Assembly: GCA_022791455.1 (NCBI GenBank)
Contig: JAAVZC010000001.1
Coordinates: forward strand, 62,001 to 126,000
Reading direction: 5' to 3'
DNA: 64,000 bases
From: Eggerthellaceae bacterium
GTDB lineage: Bacteria > Actinomycetota > Coriobacteriia > Coriobacteriales > Eggerthellaceae
How positions within the stretch are numbered: position 1 is the stretch's first letter; each line of letters starts with the position of its first letter. A program made the position numbers and the translations under genes. Below, one piece after another: positions 27,805-37,045 of the stretch. The notes below the pieces were generated by a model. The model was not told the DNA's origin, made no database searches, and saw nothing but the letters and a program-made list of their open reading frames with translations.

Positions 27805-27820
27805 ATGGGGGGTGCGGGTC

Positions 27821-28495
27821 ATGTCAGAGCTTTCGATTTTTGTTGATGAGAGCGGAGATAAGACTCGGCATGCTCAGTACTTTATACTTACGCTTGTCCT
27901 GCACGATCAAAATGACCCCATAGCAAAGGACGTCAGCATTCACGAGAAGACGCTTTCGGATGCTGACATACCGAACGTGCCCTTTCATTCTGAGCCGCTG
28001 CTAAATGGGCACGGCGACTATGAGAGCATGAGCCTAGAGCGCCGGAAGAAGATCTTGACCGCATTTGGCTCGTTGGTCAGGTTCCTTCCAGTTAAATATA
28101 AGTCTTTCGTCTACAAACGCGCGCGTTTCGAAAATATAGAAAAGCTCGCTATTCGCATGCAGCGGGACATATCGTCGATGCTCTCCGACAATCTTGCATT
28201 CTTTCAGTCTTTCGATCAGGTGAAAATCTATTACGACAATGGGCAAGATATTGTTAAGCAGGCGCTGCACAAATCAATCGAACGCGCTCTGTCGAAAGAG
28301 GCTGTTGTAAAGAAACGCACAACGATGACCGACTATAGGCTCGCTCAGGTTGCTGACTATCTATGCACAATTGAGTTGGCTGCCGTGAAATATGCTGCCA
28401 AAGAAGACGGCAACACCTATGACAAGTTTTTCGGTGGGGTTGGCGCATTCAAGAGGAATTGGCTCAAGCAAGCCAGGAGAAAGATGCTCCACTAG
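27821..28495 (+). CDS. DUF3800 domain protein
   Basis: The 224-aa protein starts with the DUF3800 signature LSIFVDESGDK, whose acidic residues (Asp9, Glu10, Asp13) resemble an RNase H-like metal site. Later conserved parts are YYDNGQDIVKQALHKSI and the TMTDYRLAQVADYLCTIEL block with its aspartates. DUF3800 proteins are common in phage-defence and mobile regions and are suspected nucleases; the reaction has not been settled as far as I know. I chose the ATG at 27821; the ATG three codons upstream is possible. A small RNA lies upstream and a similar RNA, inverted, downstream. Confidence 0.85.
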   Translation: MSELSIFVDESGDKTRHAQYFILTLVLHDQNDPIAKDVSIHEKTLSDADIPNVPFHSEPLLNGHGDYESMSLERRKKILTAFGSLVRFLPVKYKSFVYKRARFENIEKLAIRMQRDISSMLSDNLAFFQSFDQVKIYYDNGQDIVKQALHKSIERALSKEAVVKKRTTMTDYRLAQVADYLCTIELAAVKYAAKEDGNTYDKFFGGVGAFKRNWLKQARRKMLH

Positions 28496-28799
28496 TCAGG
28501 GTGCCGCATGCGGAGGAGACGATGGCGAAGAGGTGCGGGGCTCGTCAAAAAGACGCTGAGCTCCCTCACGGCGTTCGCTCCTAGATACTAAGAAGCCGGG
28601 GAAACGTCCCCGGCACTTGGAAGAAACCCCTATGCGGAGTCTCCGCGATGAATTATACAACGGGAAAGAGGCGTTGCTCGGTCCCGTAGTGTTCAATTCT
28701 TAATTATCATAAGAGCGGCGTCGAATTCGCGAGAGGCAAAAGCGCTTAGTGGATGAAACGGCTGGTCAATCGAGAAGACATCGACAAACCTTCAGGCTC
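28496..28799. other. gap between the DUF3800 gene and the Abi_2 RNA region
   Basis: No protein gene is supported here. The stretch contains a hairpin GCCGGGG-AAACGT-CCCCGGC (28595-28614), a short palindrome GCGGAGTCTCCGC (28634-28646), and a minus-strand TATAAT at 28652-28657. Together these may form a minus-strand small RNA, listed separately. Confidence 0.5.
28588..28646 (-). ncRNA. candidate minus-strand small RNA, inverted relative of the DUF3800 leader RNA
   Basis: On the minus strand a TATAAT (28657 to 28652) is followed by a GCGG-AGACT-CCGC stem, a linker ending in TTCCAAG, and the hairpin GCCGGGG-ACGTTT-CCCCGGC followed by TTCTTA. The order stem, TCCAAG linker, GCCGGGG hairpin is the same as in the RNA at 27749-27804. 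No good -35 box is seen, so transcription is uncertain. Confidence 0.4.
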
Positions 28800-28811
28800 T
28801 TATGCTAGTAT

Positions 28812-28870
28812 ATGCATCAGCAAACCCGGTCGGCCTCTCAACGATGCGCACTGCCGGGTCTTCTTTTATT
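28812..28870 (+). ncRNA. candidate pseudoknot RNA upstream of the Abi_2-like fragment
   Basis: An extended -10 box TGCTAGTAT (28803-28811) and a TCGACA at 28781-28786 (19-base spacing) mark a promoter. GCATC at 28814-28818 can pair with GATGC at 28843-28847, while ACCCGG at 28824-28829 can pair with CCGGGT at 28854-28859. The two stems cross, giving an H-type pseudoknot, and the second stem is followed by CTTCTTTTATT, which can end transcription. The AGGAGG of the next frame starts 8 bases later. Structured RNAs upstream of abiF-type genes, and pseudoknot antitoxin RNAs of the ToxI kind, are known; assignment here is inference. Confidence 0.5.
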
Positions 28871-28887
28871 CTCGTCTAGGAGGATTT

Positions 28888-29118
28888 TTGGAATACGTAA
28901 AGCCGAGGTTATTCTATGAGCGGCAAACAGACTTGCTTATAGATGGGCACGGCTTGATCGTCGACTACGAGAATCTTGTTTGCCATCTTCAGAAAATCGG
29001 CCGCTACTGTCTAAGCGGCTGCCGGTGTGCCTTCGAGCGCTCCGGTACCTCCGCTTCTGAAGACGGGTACTTTAGAGTGCGTTTTGTTGAAGGATGTGTT
29101 AGAGAAACGCATGAGTGA
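28888..29118 (+). CDS. truncated Abi_2 (AbiD/AbiF)-like protein
   Basis: A TTG start four bases after AGGAGG opens a 76-aa frame. Residues 14-60 follow the N-terminal Abi_2 pattern: QTDLLIDGHGLIVDYENLVC, then HLQKIGRYCLSGCRCAF, where intact family members have an IGYYRLSGYWYPF-like block. Several consensus aromatic residues are replaced by cysteine, and the chain stops long before the normal ~300 residues, so the HEPN catalytic part is absent. Its stop codon overlaps the ATG of the next large gene (29111), which suggests coupled translation. It may be a decayed abortive-infection gene kept as a leader frame. Confidence 0.5.
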   Translation: MEYVKPRLFYERQTDLLIDGHGLIVDYENLVCHLQKIGRYCLSGCRCAFERSGTSASEDGYFRVRFVEGCVRETHE

Positions 29119-32100
29119 TTTGGGCAATGTCGAAAAGTTGAAAACCACGCCTATCACCGAGCTCAATCTTGGTAACGCTAGAACTAGGCGTGTAATTAAG
29201 CGAGCTGGGTTTGAAACGCTGCCTGAAGTGTTTGAGCTTTCTGAAGATGAGATAGACGGGATTTTCGAGTGGGAAGAGGCGGATGCGCTCATCCGGCTGA
29301 AGGAGAAGTACTTGGCTAACCCGGACGCCGTCGCTGCCACGGTGCTTCAAAAGAGGGAAATCGATCGAGCCGCCACTGAGAGAACGCTTGCGGAGGCGAG
29401 GTTGAGCTGTGCTAGCGTGAAAACGCCAAAATCGACCTCAGTCTCTTGCGCCTATTACCCCGATGACGGGCCGACCGATCTCCCTCCAATGCCGTTTTCA
29501 GAAGCTCTGAGAGTTTACGAGAGACGCGCAAGTGAGGCTTTTGACGATCTTGACGACAGATTCGAAGACGTTATGGTGTATCAGGCCTTTGAGGAATTCT
29601 CGACCGATCTCGATGAGTTGTCTGATGCATTTACCCAGCTGTTTAGCCATTACTCGGTTCAGCCGAGAGCGGCATTGGGTCTGGTTGAGAGGCATCTAAG
29701 GAACGCATTTGTGGTTTACGTTGCGGACAGGTCGCGCAATGTCTACAGCGACGGTAACCTTTGGGGTAATTTCTTCGACGGCCTAGGGGTTAGCGACGGC
29801 AATGTGCAAGCCCTTTTCAAACAGACCTTCGTAAACCATATAGAGCGACGAGGAATGCCTCTGTACGCCCGCGATGAGGAGGTGAACTACTATTTCTATA
29901 CGGCACTTCTGCATGGCGGCTTGTCAGCTGATTCTTGGGCCAATTTGTGGGAAAAGAGCATCCTTCCTTTGGCGAAGGAGATCGCTGCGGGGCATTATGG
30001 TTTCGGAGGCGAGATGGACGGCCCCTCTATTCTCAAGGAGCTCAAGAATCCGGAGAGCCGCTTTGCTCCGAAGAAGGCCGTGCTCAACATCCTAGAAAAA
30101 GCCCCGAACTCTACTGTGACGCCGCTCTTCGAGGCATCTATGCGTGTTGCGGTGCAGGTGGAGAGTGCCAAAAAAGCAACGGGCAATTTCACCATGCTCT
30201 CGAATTATGGTCTTCCGGAGGTTGCTATGGAGGCGCTCCGCGAGACTCAGGAGCAAGCGTTAGTGTCGGGGGCGAGATCTCGTTCGAGTGAATCCTCGCG
30301 CGAAGGTAGCCATGTCGGACAGCGGCTGGTGTATTTGCCTATGGCGAGTCTGCAGCTCGACCTGGCGGAGGGCGTCGTTTCGATTCGTTGGCCCCGCCAG
30401 CAGTTCCCGCGATATTTCGCAGGATCCAGAATCGACTACTACGTAGACGGCAAAAGGGAGCTCGTTGTCGATTTCGATATCAGCATCGGAAAATGCATAC
30501 TCGAGGCCTCGAGCATTGAGGTCAAACCCCAGGCACGATATGATATCGAGATCAAGCTCATGCAAAGGGATGACAATACAGAGGAATATGTCGAGGTAAG
30601 CTCGCTTCACCAGACCTTCACGAGAAGCAAGCCCGGATGCTTTGAGTTTATTAAAGATGCGAAAGGCTTCTTCCGATTGCGGGGGCGCAGCGAGAGGATT
30701 ACGAGGAAGCGCCGCGTTGCATATATAGTTAAGGAAGGGCATCGAATCGATCCTGGGCAAGGTATGGCGCCCGTGTCGGAGTACGAAACCTCCAGCAGGT
30801 GGGATGGTGCGCAGATCTACGTCTATGATATCGACCCTGGCTCCTCAGGGGCAATTGTGGACACGAAGACTGGTAACGAGATTGCCGTCTGGCAGGAGCG
30901 ATATGTCGCGAAAATCGACAAGAGGCGCATCATTGGTGAGACTCTCGATGGAATGGATCTCTACGGTTACGTGCCCTGTGGTCTTGGTACCAATGGGGGC
31001 CTTCCTTCTGTGACTATTGAAGCAATCGATGGCTTGTCTGCGCTCAATGACTTGGATATCATGTGCGTCTGTGATGGACGAAGGATAGCCATGCCGCGGC
31101 ACATCGTATGGGATGACGACCCTGGCAAGTCGAATACGGCACAGATCACGCTCGTTCCGCAAGAGTCAAGTCTGTTCGACTGGCATATTGAGGAGTGCCT
31201 GGTAGAGGCAAGACAGAGATCTTCGGGCGGAAAGATCGTCTTCCGTTACAGGTTCGCTGCGGTTCCCATACAGGACTTTAGGCCGTTATCGGTGGATTTT
31301 GACTATGGTGTCGCTGTTGCAGAGTACGGGTTACAGGCCATGCTGGCGGTTGATATCACTAATTCGCAAGGTGACACTGAGGCTGTCAACGCTTGGGAGA
31401 GATACAGTGCAAAAACTCTGCTCAAGGACGAGTTTCTCTCCTTGCGAATTCAATCAAAGGACAGCGGGAAGAAGACGGATGCGAAGCTTGCGCTTGCGGC
31501 AATAGATATTGAAATCCCCGGTGCCCTTATGAACATAGCCAAGAAGCGCCCCATCTGTTTAGCGGATGCGCTGAGCCTAGGGCCGAGTTCAGCAAACTTC
31601 AGAATCACCTCCTCTAGTTGGCGATACAACAGGGCCGTGATGGTCATGCTCGACTGTGAGCCGCTCTTCCTAGAGGAACTGAGGCAGCCGGGTGTACATG
31701 AGTTCAACCTGTTTAGATGCATCGCTGCGTTTCGGCAGGCTGACGAGTCGGCTCCCTGCGCGCGCCCTCTTAGGCTCTCGCTGATATACGGTGATGATGT
31801 GACGCGGGGCTATTTAAGGCCGGCCTGGACGGACGTACAGCTGCTCGATTGCTTCGAAGGGATTGGCATCAACGACTGGAAAGTTTTGGCAACTACGGCT
31901 GGTGAGCACGTGCTCCGCTTTGATGGAGCCCCCCTGTGCGACGTCTGCTTCGAATTCAAGAGGAGGCTCGGCGGGAGAGTTATTGCGGAAGTATCTGCGG
32001 AAGAAGGATCTGCTGAAGTGGTCATCCCGCAAAGTGTGGTCAGGCTCATTGACGCACGCAAGACGGTAATCATTGAGATGTCGCCAAGTGATTGGTTCGG

Positions 32101-32146
32101 CGACCCGCAGCACGAATATGCAACCAGATTCACCCTGAGAAGGTAG
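29111..32146 (+). CDS. large defence-associated protein, candidate DruH-like
   Basis: This 1,011-aa protein has no family I can name with certainty. Residues 14-65 (TTPITELNLGNARTRRVIKR and ELSEDEIDGIFEWEE) resemble the helix-hairpin-helix fold of RNA polymerase alpha C-terminal domains, which bind DNA. The middle part is helical and acidic; the last ~600 residues look beta-rich, with many short charged strands and no nuclease or ATPase motif that I see. It lies 6 bases before a giant DUF1998-type helicase gene. A large unknown protein paired with such a helicase is the layout of Druantia type III (DruH, DruE). I chose the ATG at 29111 because the preceding small frame ends there; the frame is open slightly upstream. 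Confidence 0.6.
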   Translation: MSDLGNVEKLKTTPITELNLGNARTRRVIKRAGFETLPEVFELSEDEIDGIFEWEEADALIRLKEKYLANPDAVAATVLQKREIDRAATERTLAEARLSCASVKTPKSTSVSCAYYPDDGPTDLPPMPFSEALRVYERRASEAFDDLDDRFEDVMVYQAFEEFSTDLDELSDAFTQLFSHYSVQPRAALGLVERHLRNAFVVYVADRSRNVYSDGNLWGNFFDGLGVSDGNVQALFKQTFVNHIERRGMPLYARDEEVNYYFYTALLHGGLSADSWANLWEKSILPLAKEIAAGHYGFGGEMDGPSILKELKNPESRFAPKKAVLNILEKAPNSTVTPLFEASMRVAVQVESAKKATGNFTMLSNYGLPEVAMEALRETQEQALVSGARSRSSESSREGSHVGQRLVYLPMASLQLDLAEGVVSIRWPRQQFPRYFAGSRIDYYVDGKRELVVDFDISIGKCILEASSIEVKPQARYDIEIKLMQRDDNTEEYVEVSSLHQTFTRSKPGCFEFIKDAKGFFRLRGRSERITRKRRVAYIVKEGHRIDPGQGMAPVSEYETSSRWDGAQIYVYDIDPGSSGAIVDTKTGNEIAVWQERYVAKIDKRRIIGETLDGMDLYGYVPCGLGTNGGLPSVTIEAIDGLSALNDLDIMCVCDGRRIAMPRHIVWDDDPGKSNTAQITLVPQESSLFDWHIEECLVEARQRSSGGKIVFRYRFAAVPIQDFRPLSVDFDYGVAVAEYGLQAMLAVDITNSQGDTEAVNAWERYSAKTLLKDEFLSLRIQSKDSGKKTDAKLALAAIDIEIPGALMNIAKKRPICLADALSLGPSSANFRITSSSWRYNRAVMVMLDCEPLFLEELRQPGVHEFNLFRCIAAFRQADESAPCARPLRLSLIYGDDVTRGYLRPAWTDVQLLDCFEGIGINDWKVLATTAGEHVLRFDGAPLCDVCFEFKRRLGGRVIAEVSAEEGSAEVVIPQSVVRLIDARKTVIIEMSPSDWFGDPQHEYATRFTLRR

Positions 32147-32152
32147 GTACAT

Positions 32153-35100
32153 ATGGCCCAGGCAAAAGAGTTCAACCCTATCGAAACGGCACGCAGGATA
32201 GAGAATTCGTACCGAGAATACATCGCCACCACCATCCACTTCGACGACGCAGATCTGCAAGAGCAGCTTGAGGAGATACTCCTCAAGCCTGGTTATCTTG
32301 CAAAGGGGCCGTTTCTCGAGGCGGCTCCGCCGTATCGCAAGGACAAGACGGTGGCAGAGCTGGTGAGCGAGAAGGTGCTCTGCGAGAGCATGGTGAATCT
32401 CGGCGGAGGGGAAATTCGGAACTTCGACCCGGAGCGTCCTCTTTACATTCATCAGGTGAGGGCTATCAAAAAAGCGGCGGCAGGACGTAACTACGCAGTC
32501 GTTACTGGGACTGGCTCCGGCAAAACAGAATGCTTCCTGTTGCCCATTCTCAACGACATTCTCAGCGAGTTCGAAGCAAATGGGCCCTCTGCGGGCACCC
32601 GAGCTATGATCCTGTACCCCATGAACGCGCTTGCTAATGACCAGCTCAAGAGACTTAGGATGCTTCTGCAGGGTACGGACATCACTTTTGGGCGTTATAC
32701 CGGAGATACTGAGGAGACCGAGTCTAAGGCCCTTTCTAAATGGAAGGAGGAGAACCCTGGACAAACAAAGCTCCCTAACGAGATTATCTCCCGTGAGGAG
32801 ATCCGCAAAAATCCCCCCAACATCCTTCTCACAAACTACTCGATGCTCGAGTACCTTCTGCTGCGTCCCGAGGATGCGTCGCTGTTTGGCAAAACATTTG
32901 GCACGAACTGGAGGCACATTGCCGTCGATGAGGCCCATATCTACTCTGGCGCGCTCGGCACCGAGATAGCGTTCCTGCTGCGACGTCTCAAGGCCAGGAT
33001 TGAGGCGGAGACGGGTGAGGCCCCCAAGTTACAGTGTTATGCCACCTCCGCGACGATAGGCTCGGAGGAAGACATGCCGAAAGTCGCTTTGTTTGCTCAG
33101 GATCTTTTCGGTGAGCCGTTTTCTGACGACGACTCGGATCTTGATGTCATCACTAGCGAAAAAGACCAACCTCAGGACGCTTTGGCTGCGGATCCGTGGG
33201 GCAAGCTTCCTCTGGCGGTGTGGTTTAAGCTCAGGGAAGTTCTGCACGATTCAGAAGCTGTGACCGGTTGTGCCATACGAGAGATCCTTGCGACTGCAAG
33301 CGTACCAGGACGCGTCATCTCTGTGATTGATGATGAAAACCCCCTTCTGGGGTTGGGTGAAGTGCTCCTTGGGGAGGAGTCTACGGCGAAATTAGTCAGA
33401 CGATGCGCCACTCTCTTCGACCTTACTGATCTGAATTGCATAAGCGCTCTCGCCATAGACGGGCTTTCGGGCGATCGGGCTGGGGTGGAAACCCTGACCG
33501 CAATGGTGGAGGTGCTTTCCACGGCGCAGCGTTCCAAGGACGTTCCCATTCTCACGAGTCGATTTCACTCGTTCTTGCGCGCTCCGGAAGGCATCTTCTT
33601 GAATTTGCACACCCGTAGGCTTACGCCGAATAAGACCGTTTCGGAAAGATATGATGATGGGAACGATACGCCCGTATATGAAGTGTCGGTCTGTCGCCAT
33701 TGCGGTCAAGCCTATATTCTGGGTGTGGAAAAGTCGGTTAAGGAGAGCGCGACAGCGTGGCTGAATCCCAGGCACGAGGGGACGGATTCTGATGACGAGT
33801 TCATTCCGAGAACCTACTACCGTGTTCTTGGCGATGGATCAGAGCAAGATCCAGACGAGGTGGTTCAATGGCTCTGCCCGATATGCGGTAGCCTGCATCA
33901 TCAATTTGAAGGCGGAATGCATCGTTTCGTTCACGAGGAAGTGCAGCGAGTGCCCATTGCGCTTAACCGGACCGAGGGCAAGCAGGCGGATGAGGAGACC
34001 GCCCGTTGTCGGCATTGCGGGTACCAATCGCGCGTTGCCATCCAGCCCATGAGGGTCTCTCCTGAAGCCGCGGGTAGCATCGTCTGCTATGACCTTGTCA
34101 GGGAGATTCCGCCATTTAGCGAAAAGCAACCTGATGAAGATGACTGGTTTTCGGATCTTGATGAGACCCGCAGGGCGGGTAGCGTCATCTGCTTCTCTGA
34201 TAAGCGGCAGGATGCGGCCTTTTTCGCACCTGCAATGGAGAGGACATACGGAAGCATTACACGGCGCCAGTTAATCAGGGAGGCGGTTGAGGCCAGATCG
34301 TCCGATGGCGAAGGTTGCAAGCCGAGTGCGGTGGTTAACTGGATAGCGAGTACAGCGAACAGGCGATATCCTGGACTTTTGGGATCAGACAAGAGAGGGC
34401 AGGCGACTGCTTGGATTCTCGACGAACTTGCTGCTGAGGACTCCCGAAATAGTCTAGCGGGACTTGGTGTGGTGAGAATCGAGCCCACAGAGTTTAACAA
34501 GGGCTTCGCGCACCCGAAGGTGCAGGCTCTGGTCTCGAGGCGAGTGGAACTGCTCAACGCCGACGGCATCTCATGGCTTAGTGACAATGATTATATCCTC
34601 CTTGCCAAAACCTGTCTCGAGCTCCTGCGTGAGCGAAACGTTATAGAGGTTCCTGAAGGCGTTCCGGATCTTAGGGAGAATCACGAGAAACGAGGAAACG
34701 TCGTCGTTCTTGGTGGCGAGAGCCCATCCGTGTCCAAGGATGTCGTGCAGTTTGCAGGAACGTCTACGAGCGCGACGGAGAACAAGCGAAGTGCATTCGT
34801 TCGCAAATACGCAAAAAAGGTTCACGGCGTTGAGTTGTCACGCGCAGGCGCCCTTAAGATACTCCAAGATCTCTTCATGTTCATGACGCAGTATCTGGGC
34901 GGCTTCTTCAAGGGCGAGGATTATCTTATCGGACCAAAAGGGGTCGTCAAGGAGAAGTTCAGGCTCAACCAGGACATCTGGACCATGTATCCTCATTCGG
35001 ATGAGGACATCGTCTACCGCTGTAGTTCTTGCGGATGTGAAACGCACTTGGATACCAACGGTGTCTGCGCCACAACGAAATGCGACGGCACTATGGTAAA

Positions 35101-37045
35101 AATGACGTTTGCAGAGGCCAGAAACAAAGATCGATTCTACAAGGCCATCTATCAGGAGGAGGCGCTCCCACTCGATATCCAGGAGCATACGGCGCAGCTC
35201 TCGTCTAAGAGGGCAAGGGAGATCCAGAGCGGCTTCATCAAAGGCGACGTCAATGTGCTCAGTTGTACGACGACTTTCGAGCTCGGCGTGGACGTGGGCG
35301 ATCTGCGCGCGATTTTCATGAGGAATGTTCCGCCCACAACAGCCAATTACACTCAGCGTGCGGGGCGCGTAGGGCGCCGAGCTGGAAAACCCGGCTACGC
35401 GATAACGTTTGCTCGTCTGCGACCGCACGACATTGCCCATTTCGACGATCCCTCGAAGATCATTGCCGGTCATACCAGGGTGCCGATGTGCTACCTGGAC
35501 AACGATGCCATTGCGATTCGCCATGTCTTTGCAGTCGCAATATCTGCGTTCTTCAGGCATGCGAGCGAGAACCTCGGCAAGGACTACTCCCATGCCTATA
35601 ACGACTTCATGGATTTGGCGATTGAAGAGCCAGACGGCCTCAAAGAGCTTCGAAGCTACCTTGAGGCGAGGCCCGGGCACATCCGTGAACAACTCTTGAA
35701 GGTCATCCCGCAGGATCTTCCCGTGGCAGAAAGCATCGACATAGACAACTGGAAGTGGGTTGACAAGCTCGTCGGCCCGATTGACTGGGAGGAGGGGGAA
35801 GGCGGAGGCAGGCTGCCCCTTGTCCATAACTTGAAGCACGCCGACTTCGAGCGTATTCAGGAAGGTGTTGAGCAGAACATGGGTGTTAATGACGCGCTTG
35901 CCTCCAATCTTCTCAAATCCAGAGACGCGCTCAAGAAGGAGAAGACAATCTCCATCCTCGCTGAGAACGGAATCTTGCCAAAATACGGGTTTCCGACTGA
36001 CCTCATAGAGCTTCACCTGCCTGCAATTCGACAGTCCGTAGAAGATGACAGACTCTCCCTTTCGCGCGGTATGCGTCAGGCTATCAGGGAATATGCACCG
36101 GGCTCTGAGATCGTTGCGGGTAAAACCCTGTGGAAGTCTACTGGCATAAATAAGCCGAAAGGGCAGGAGCTTCGAGTACGAAGGTATGGGAAGTGTCCAG
36201 AGTGCGGGGCCTTTGTCTGGCCTATTGAGAACTATAGCGATGAGGGTGAATGTCCTGTGTGTCATAACGAGTTCGTCCTTGAGAAGAAGATGCTCATCCC
36301 GTCCTATGGCTTCGTCGGAGAAGCGGGCGAAAAGGGCGTCGAACTGAGGAGGCCAAGATCAAGGGGTCATATTTCGGTATATTTTAGCCAGCACTGGCCA
36401 AATGAGGCTGTCCCTGCGGAAATCCAATTCCCTGGCGGAGTCGTGCGGAAGCGGTATTCTGGCAATGGCCAGCTCTGTGCTCTCAACGCACCACGTATGG
36501 GCTTCCAGGTGTGCTCCTACTGCAACGGCGCCGCAGTAGGCGGTGAGGCTATCAAGCATGCCTACTGGTGCGAAAAAAGTGGCCTCGCTCCCAAAATCAT
36601 GCGTTACAGCGCCCTGGGAACCTCGTTTGTGAGCGATGTGCTCGAGCTTGTCTTCGATATAGATGCTGCGCCAAGCTACGTTAACGAGGACTGGGAAGCT
36701 GTCATGTGGGCTTTGTTCGCTGCTGCTGCGAAGATTCTCGAGGTGCCCGAGACGGAGCTCGGCGGAACTATGTACGAGAACGAAATGCACGGTATATCGA
36801 TTCTCATCTATGACGATGTTCCCGGAGGGGCGGGTCATGCCAGGCAGCTGAACGATAGGGTTCTGGAGCTCGTGAAGGAGGCATACGGGGTGGTCGATGG
36901 CCATTGCGGGTGTGGAGAGGAGACCTGCTGCTACGGGTGCATAGCGAATTACTACAACCAGATGAAGCAAGCTAAGCTTTCTCGCGGCGCCGCCAAGAAA
37001 ATCTTGAAAGCTCTTCTTTCCCCGTCCGAGACTGACTCTTTGTAG
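32153..37045 (+). CDS. giant DEAD/DEAH helicase with DUF1998-type C-terminus, candidate DruE-like
   Basis: The 1,630-aa protein is an ATP-dependent superfamily 2 helicase. Walker A is TGTGSGKTE near residue 120, the Walker B box VDEAHIYSG near 258, and motif VI QRAGRVGRRAG near 1070. Between and after the RecA halves are many cysteine pairs that should bind zinc: CRHCGQA (~513), CPICGS (~573), CRHCGYQ (~619), CSSCGCE (~956), CPECGAF with CPVC (~1348-1370) and CSYCNG (~1454). The end, CGCGEETCCYGCIANYYNQ, is the DUF1998 signature. One chain holding both helicase and DUF1998 is characteristic of DruE; DISARM splits these functions over DrmA and DrmB. It follows its partner gene by 6 bases. Codon use is less GC-rich than the flanking chromosome. 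Confidence 0.85.
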   Translation: MAQAKEFNPIETARRIENSYREYIATTIHFDDADLQEQLEEILLKPGYLAKGPFLEAAPPYRKDKTVAELVSEKVLCESMVNLGGGEIRNFDPERPLYIHQVRAIKKAAAGRNYAVVTGTGSGKTECFLLPILNDILSEFEANGPSAGTRAMILYPMNALANDQLKRLRMLLQGTDITFGRYTGDTEETESKALSKWKEENPGQTKLPNEIISREEIRKNPPNILLTNYSMLEYLLLRPEDASLFGKTFGTNWRHIAVDEAHIYSGALGTEIAFLLRRLKARIEAETGEAPKLQCYATSATIGSEEDMPKVALFAQDLFGEPFSDDDSDLDVITSEKDQPQDALAADPWGKLPLAVWFKLREVLHDSEAVTGCAIREILATASVPGRVISVIDDENPLLGLGEVLLGEESTAKLVRRCATLFDLTDLNCISALAIDGLSGDRAGVETLTAMVEVLSTAQRSKDVPILTSRFHSFLRAPEGIFLNLHTRRLTPNKTVSERYDDGNDTPVYEVSVCRHCGQAYILGVEKSVKESATAWLNPRHEGTDSDDEFIPRTYYRVLGDGSEQDPDEVVQWLCPICGSLHHQFEGGMHRFVHEEVQRVPIALNRTEGKQADEETARCRHCGYQSRVAIQPMRVSPEAAGSIVCYDLVREIPPFSEKQPDEDDWFSDLDETRRAGSVICFSDKRQDAAFFAPAMERTYGSITRRQLIREAVEARSSDGEGCKPSAVVNWIASTANRRYPGLLGSDKRGQATAWILDELAAEDSRNSLAGLGVVRIEPTEFNKGFAHPKVQALVSRRVELLNADGISWLSDNDYILLAKTCLELLRERNVIEVPEGVPDLRENHEKRGNVVVLGGESPSVSKDVVQFAGTSTSATENKRSAFVRKYAKKVHGVELSRAGALKILQDLFMFMTQYLGGFFKGEDYLIGPKGVVKEKFRLNQDIWTMYPHSDEDIVYRCSSCGCETHLDTNGVCATTKCDGTMVKMTFAEARNKDRFYKAIYQEEALPLDIQEHTAQLSSKRAREIQSGFIKGDVNVLSCTTTFELGVDVGDLRAIFMRNVPPTTANYTQRAGRVGRRAGKPGYAITFARLRPHDIAHFDDPSKIIAGHTRVPMCYLDNDAIAIRHVFAVAISAFFRHASENLGKDYSHAYNDFMDLAIEEPDGLKELRSYLEARPGHIREQLLKVIPQDLPVAESIDIDNWKWVDKLVGPIDWEEGEGGGRLPLVHNLKHADFERIQEGVEQNMGVNDALASNLLKSRDALKKEKTISILAENGILPKYGFPTDLIELHLPAIRQSVEDDRLSLSRGMRQAIREYAPGSEIVAGKTLWKSTGINKPKGQELRVRRYGKCPECGAFVWPIENYSDEGECPVCHNEFVLEKKMLIPSYGFVGEAGEKGVELRRPRSRGHISVYFSQHWPNEAVPAEIQFPGGVVRKRYSGNGQLCALNAPRMGFQVCSYCNGAAVGGEAIKHAYWCEKSGLAPKIMRYSALGTSFVSDVLELVFDIDAAPSYVNEDWEAVMWALFAAAAKILEVPETELGGTMYENEMHGISILIYDDVPGGAGHARQLNDRVLELVKEAYGVVDGHCGCGEETCCYGCIANYYNQMKQAKLSRGAAKKILKALLSPSETDSL

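Follow-up and report, generated by a model that had tools for sequence, protein, structure and literature searches.

An abiF-family small RNA in front of a truncated abiF gene and a Druantia-like operon in an Eggerthellaceae bacterium

Introduction

The closest described relatives of the RNA reported here are the abiF RNA of Rfam (RF03085), RCd22 of C. difficile and AbiFr, the RNA of a Prevotellaceae AbiF (PDB 8VZ6). AbiF is an RNA-cutting toxin, and the RNA is its antidote. Work in C. difficile indicated that the cognate abiF RNA, supplied in trans, binds AbiF directly and thereby neutralises it, for which the stem is required, and that read-through into abiF depends on a terminator in the RNA (PMC12373285). 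A more distant parallel is ToxI, the antitoxin of the type III system ToxIN, which is also a small RNA of about 36-40 nt and which also has solitary mimics in phages; phage PhiTE escapes ToxIN through such an RNA mimic, pseudo-ToxI (PMC3475682).

Here we describe an RNA of this kind in a 64-kb stretch of DNA from an Eggerthellaceae bacterium (the window). Coordinates refer to its + strand, on which the promoter, the RNA, the toxin remnant and the operon behind it all lie. The window RNA has in common with RF03085, RCd22 and AbiFr the core GCCUCUCAACGAUGC and the outer stem, and resembles them in its short promoter spacing, its U-rich end and its place just before an AbiF gene. It differs from them in that the adjoining AbiF gene is truncated and that its score lies under the Rfam cut-off. 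RCd22 has two motifs, whereas the window RNA is a single copy. ToxI folds into a pseudoknot and is released from repeats by cleavage, whereas the window RNA is predicted to be a single hairpin, and the toxin families are unrelated.

Results

A covariance model (R1), built from eight AbiF-adjacent abiF RNAs of which none came from Coriobacteriia, the class of the window, matched positions 28820-28859 with 36 bits and an E value of 1.1e-8 in a search of the 64-kb window. The second-best match in the window, at 29144-29173, had an E value of 2.3 and was set aside as chance; other abiF-like RNA matches in the same genome reached E values of 0.7 and 9. Within the domain lies the invariant core GCCTCTCAACGATGC (28833-28847), which is identical to the Rfam abiF consensus at model positions 9-23, all 15 of 15 consensus positions being matched by RF03085 at low stringency (17 bits). 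An Rfam scan of the window at the gathering threshold gave no matches, the 17 bits of RF03085 standing against a cut-off of 37. Given that the sibling RNAs of Adlercreutzia muris, A. mucosicola and Parvibacter caecicola score just 25.2 bits with the same model, the abiF locus of A. muris being intact, the score of the window RNA reflects a limit of the Rfam model, and the RNA was filed as abiF by homology and not by the Rfam cut-off. Homologues were gathered from family genomes, viral contigs and one genome per species with the core string, and it is with this manner of collection in mind that the conservation of the core in all aligned homologues has to be read. Judged by its sequence, the window RNA is a genuine member of the abiF family.

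The preliminary description of this locus had proposed two crossing helices, formed by GCATC (28814-28818) with GATGC (28843-28847) and by ACCCGG (28824-28829) with CCGGGT (28854-28859), and all four strings are found at these positions. The ACCCGG helix is conserved, covarying and far above chance. It is part of an outer stem of 7 bp with a terminal U-G pair, in which the 5′ arm ACCCGGT (28824-28830) pairs with the 3′ arm GCCGGGT (28853-28859). In a structure-anchored, not model-fitted, count the 6-bp outer stem was formed by 37/37 AbiF-adjacent homologues; after shuffling of the partners, the number averaged 14.8 and never exceeded 23. Alignment A5, with 47 model-fitted matches (30 distinct) whose fitting leans towards the structure, had 98.6% of its cells paired, double changes in 8/8 outer-helix pairs and a covariation score of 0.405 vs 0.138 in shuffles. 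The long RNA set had also been aligned with MAFFT; as the 3′ arm was out of register there and the stem came out too weak, the count and alignment A5 were used instead. Two further pairs, G28833-C28847 and C28834-G28846, make up an inner stem. Taken together, the homologues support a fold in which a single hairpin consists of the outer stem, closing an invariant internal loop, and these two pairs.

The extended -10 box already pointed out upstream of the RNA (TGC-TAGTAT, 28803-28811) is conserved in relatives, TGnTAnnnT being found 28-30 nt before the core in 18/19 actinobacterial abiF RNAs. It predicts a transcription start at about 28819, with which the start of the C. difficile abiF RNA motif at +9 is consistent (PMC12373285). 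With this start, GCATC would fall outside the RNA, in the spacer that separates the -10 box from the first transcribed base, where column information is low. The T-rich end that had been noted is likewise there, as a U-rich, interrupted tail at 28861-28870 after the 3′ arm. A single-hairpin RNA would thus run from about 28819, under the control of a conserved extended -10 promoter, to this U-rich stretch, its predicted end.

Just upstream of the RNA, at 27812-28495, lies the gene of a DUF3800 protein. DUF3800 genes are known as neighbours of several structured RNA motifs. A GyrI-like gene stands just upstream of the abiF RNA in Collinsella (L197:1253-1891) and also in A. muris (L063:4226-4861), two bacteria of different families.

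Downstream of the RNA, a ribosome-binding site, AGGAGG (28878-28883), which A. muris, A. mucosicola and P. caecicola share, precedes a frame of 76 codons (28888-29118) that contains about 70 N-terminal codons of abiF and lacks the HEPN catalytic part with its R-x4-H motif. The AbiF N-terminus starts 28 nt after the outer stem, in agreement with the earlier placing of a structured RNA directly before a truncated Abi_2 gene. The remnant has 52% identity over 71 residues to A. muris AbiF, of which residues 1-70 only are covered (tblastn); the toxin body is missing, as had been recognised. A. muris AbiF itself carries Pfam Abi_2 and matches the AbiF-RNA complex 8VZ6 with an E value of 6e-47. A trimmed AbiF HMM finds the remnant with an E value of 6e-12. 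The remnant had no match in Pfam, NCBIfam or PDB and was identified via sibling genomes; there is also a weak plasmid match to an Abi family protein. A complete AbiF with its HEPN residues, which a functional AbiF type III toxin-antitoxin system requires, was not found at the locus. Elsewhere in the genome, a 139-aa Abi_2-like frame (L069) was considered and is not an AbiF of the remnant's type.

Two genes follow. The first, ORF1 (29111-32146, 1011 aa), has no match among the PADLOC and NCBIfam models, and its homologues stay beside DruE in three other genomes of the family. The second (32153-37045, 1630 aa) encodes a DruE-like helicase (PADLOC DruE1, E 4e-171; Pfam DEAD, Helicase_C and MZB). 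With two genes, the last of which encodes a DruE helicase, the operon is reminiscent of the defence system Druantia type III (DruH-DruE), from which it differs in that no model fits its ORF1; ORF1 is a candidate for a divergent DruH or for a new Druantia subtype.

Comparison with relatives places these genes at a recognisable site. P. caecicola belongs to the same genus as the source organism, and the GMP synthase gene (guaA) that adjoins the abiF locus in A. muris, A. mucosicola and P. caecicola also lies by the Druantia operon of the window. At this guaA-side site, abiF is intact in A. muris and A. mucosicola, has an internal deletion and a frameshift in P. caecicola, with an RNA unchanged over 42 nt, and is reduced in the window to the remnant, behind which come ORF1 and DruE. 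As read from this site, the toxin gene of the window is truncated and a Druantia-like operon replaces the rest of it; abiF would have been cut to about 70 codons and the two genes would have come in place of the remainder. The window RNA differs from those of its siblings at 2/42 sites, compared with 16-17/72 sites in the first 24 abiF codons. One of the two changes gives a U-G pair and the other is at a family-variable position, and neither breaks the consensus. For one genome and 42 sites this is only suggestive of selection on the RNA itself.

Toxin-less abiF RNAs are found in other members of the class. A census of 398 Coriobacteriia genomes gave 56 abiF-RNA places in 54 of them. At the 53 loci that could be scored, AbiF was intact in 21, broken in 16 and absent in 16, so that 32/53 were without an intact AbiF; the loci were found via the RNA, by which decayed RNAs are missed, and sequencing errors may account for a few of the breaks. 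Collinsella contributes about fifteen of the non-intact loci, and no intact AbiF was found among the Collinsella loci scored; some of these genomes have a distant AbiF elsewhere. So that the presence of the RNA would not decide which loci were sampled, Collinsella genomes were searched with the upstream flank alone. The RNA was kept in 16 of the 17 genomes that could be read across its position, and 2/40 of its sites were variable vs 53/94 just upstream (p 6e-9, columns treated as independent). Five Collinsella genomes with one common abiF deletion had 0/40 variable RNA sites, for which the wider-flank rate gives P 0.003, again with columns treated as independent. These toxin losses could be recent. 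The pattern suggests, from sequence comparison, that leftover abiF antidote RNAs are often kept.

Similar RNAs occur in phages, as was mentioned before for a cyanophage (PMC9964418). Unannotated abiF RNAs with no AbiF annotated nearby were seen in Aeromonas phage PZL-Ah8 (MZ851152.1, L279:2503-2544), Salicola phage CGphi29 (L280:2501-2539) and Mycobacterium phage LittleE (L282:2488-2528). Over its 42 positions the PZL-Ah8 copy does not deviate once from the model consensus, and it is flanked by the connector and capsid assembly genes. These three phage RNAs are candidate anti-AbiF mimics. Viral contigs carry a tandem array of three abiF RNA hairpins (L050:4406-4533 and L047:590-717), which resembles ToxI repeats and has no recognised AbiF adjoining. 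An abiF-like RNA inside a tRNA array of Arthrobacter phage Mimi (L281:2495-2525) is a weak match of 22 bits, and another, in Saccharopolyspora (L085:3340-3380), apparently lies beside tRNA genes, as judged by eye.

Discussion

Our results indicate that the window RNA is the antitoxin of an AbiF type III module that has lost its toxin, and that it has most likely remained in place as a solitary antitoxin. Given the neutralisation in trans reported in C. difficile and the mimic of PhiTE, this is the simplest reading of a toxin-less abiF RNA that is conserved. As the cognate abiF RNA acts in trans in C. difficile, a solitary RNA could bind and silence AbiF arriving from plasmids, phages or neighbouring strains. 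Compatible with this role, the abiF promoter and ribosome-binding site probably feed the Druantia operon as well, through read-through and translational coupling, as far as one genome can tell.

It could also be that the toxin-antitoxin module is dead and that its RNA, no longer under selection, can still be recognised since the loss was recent, a reading that we hold to be somewhat doubtful. The AbiF remnant is decaying: of the 22 residues, start codon not counted, at which nine intact AbiFs agree, 6 are changed in it, compared with 1 in A. muris AbiF. No other intact AbiF of the same type was found in the source genome, the assembly of which is 93% complete. The dN/dS of the remnant vs A. 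muris is low (0.14-0.17, with dS saturated), which shows that most of the divergence predates the toxin loss and suggests that the loss was late. However, the core and the stem of the RNA are intact, whereas four of the changes in the remnant fall within its YYRLSGYW motif, and the toxin-less RNAs of Collinsella are far less variable than their flanks. Both observations speak against a plain relic.

Another possibility, which we regard as unlikely, is that the abiF promoter, the hairpin acting as an attenuator, the ribosome-binding site and the 76-codon coupled leader have been recruited to regulate the Druantia operon. The stop of the remnant overlaps the start of ORF1 (ATGAGTGA, 29111-29118), no strong ribosome-binding site of its own was seen before ORF1, and the terminator governing read-through into abiF in C. 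difficile offers a precedent (PMC12373285). Against a takeover of the RNA, the arrangement is known from this single genome, and the abiF RNA core was not found near any of the three related Druantia operons examined. The RNA also persists toxin-less beside unrelated genes elsewhere, and the suggestion in the preliminary description that it may now serve the Druantia-like operon is not supported; the link to Druantia is unsupported beyond position.

The H-type pseudoknot that had been drawn from the two helices is very improbable: both pairs of strands are complementary in the window, but the GCATC/GATGC stem is complete at the corresponding place in 1/37 homologues, which is the window only, its mean pairing (56%) is at chance level beside one of the slid registers (62%), 2/37 homologues contain a Watson-Crick complement of GATGC at any point of the upstream stretch (about 0.9 expected), GATGC is invariant although its partner strand varies, and GCATC precedes the predicted transcription start. 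Two crossing helices, by which a ToxI-like pseudoknot antitoxin would be known, are not conserved among the homologues examined.

Beyond this locus, we tentatively propose that solitary abiF RNAs are a widespread, selected class without toxin, which may give bacteria immunity to incoming AbiF and phages a counter-defence mimic, with the window representing a stage shortly after toxin loss. If the RNA regularly outlives its toxin, and if the phage copies act on AbiF, it would be an antidote RNA with an independent role against toxins and defence systems. AbiF has been reported as the ancestor of Cas13, with its RNA as the forerunner of the guide RNA. If the proposal is true, the solitary state would be a route by which an abiF RNA could take a new partner.
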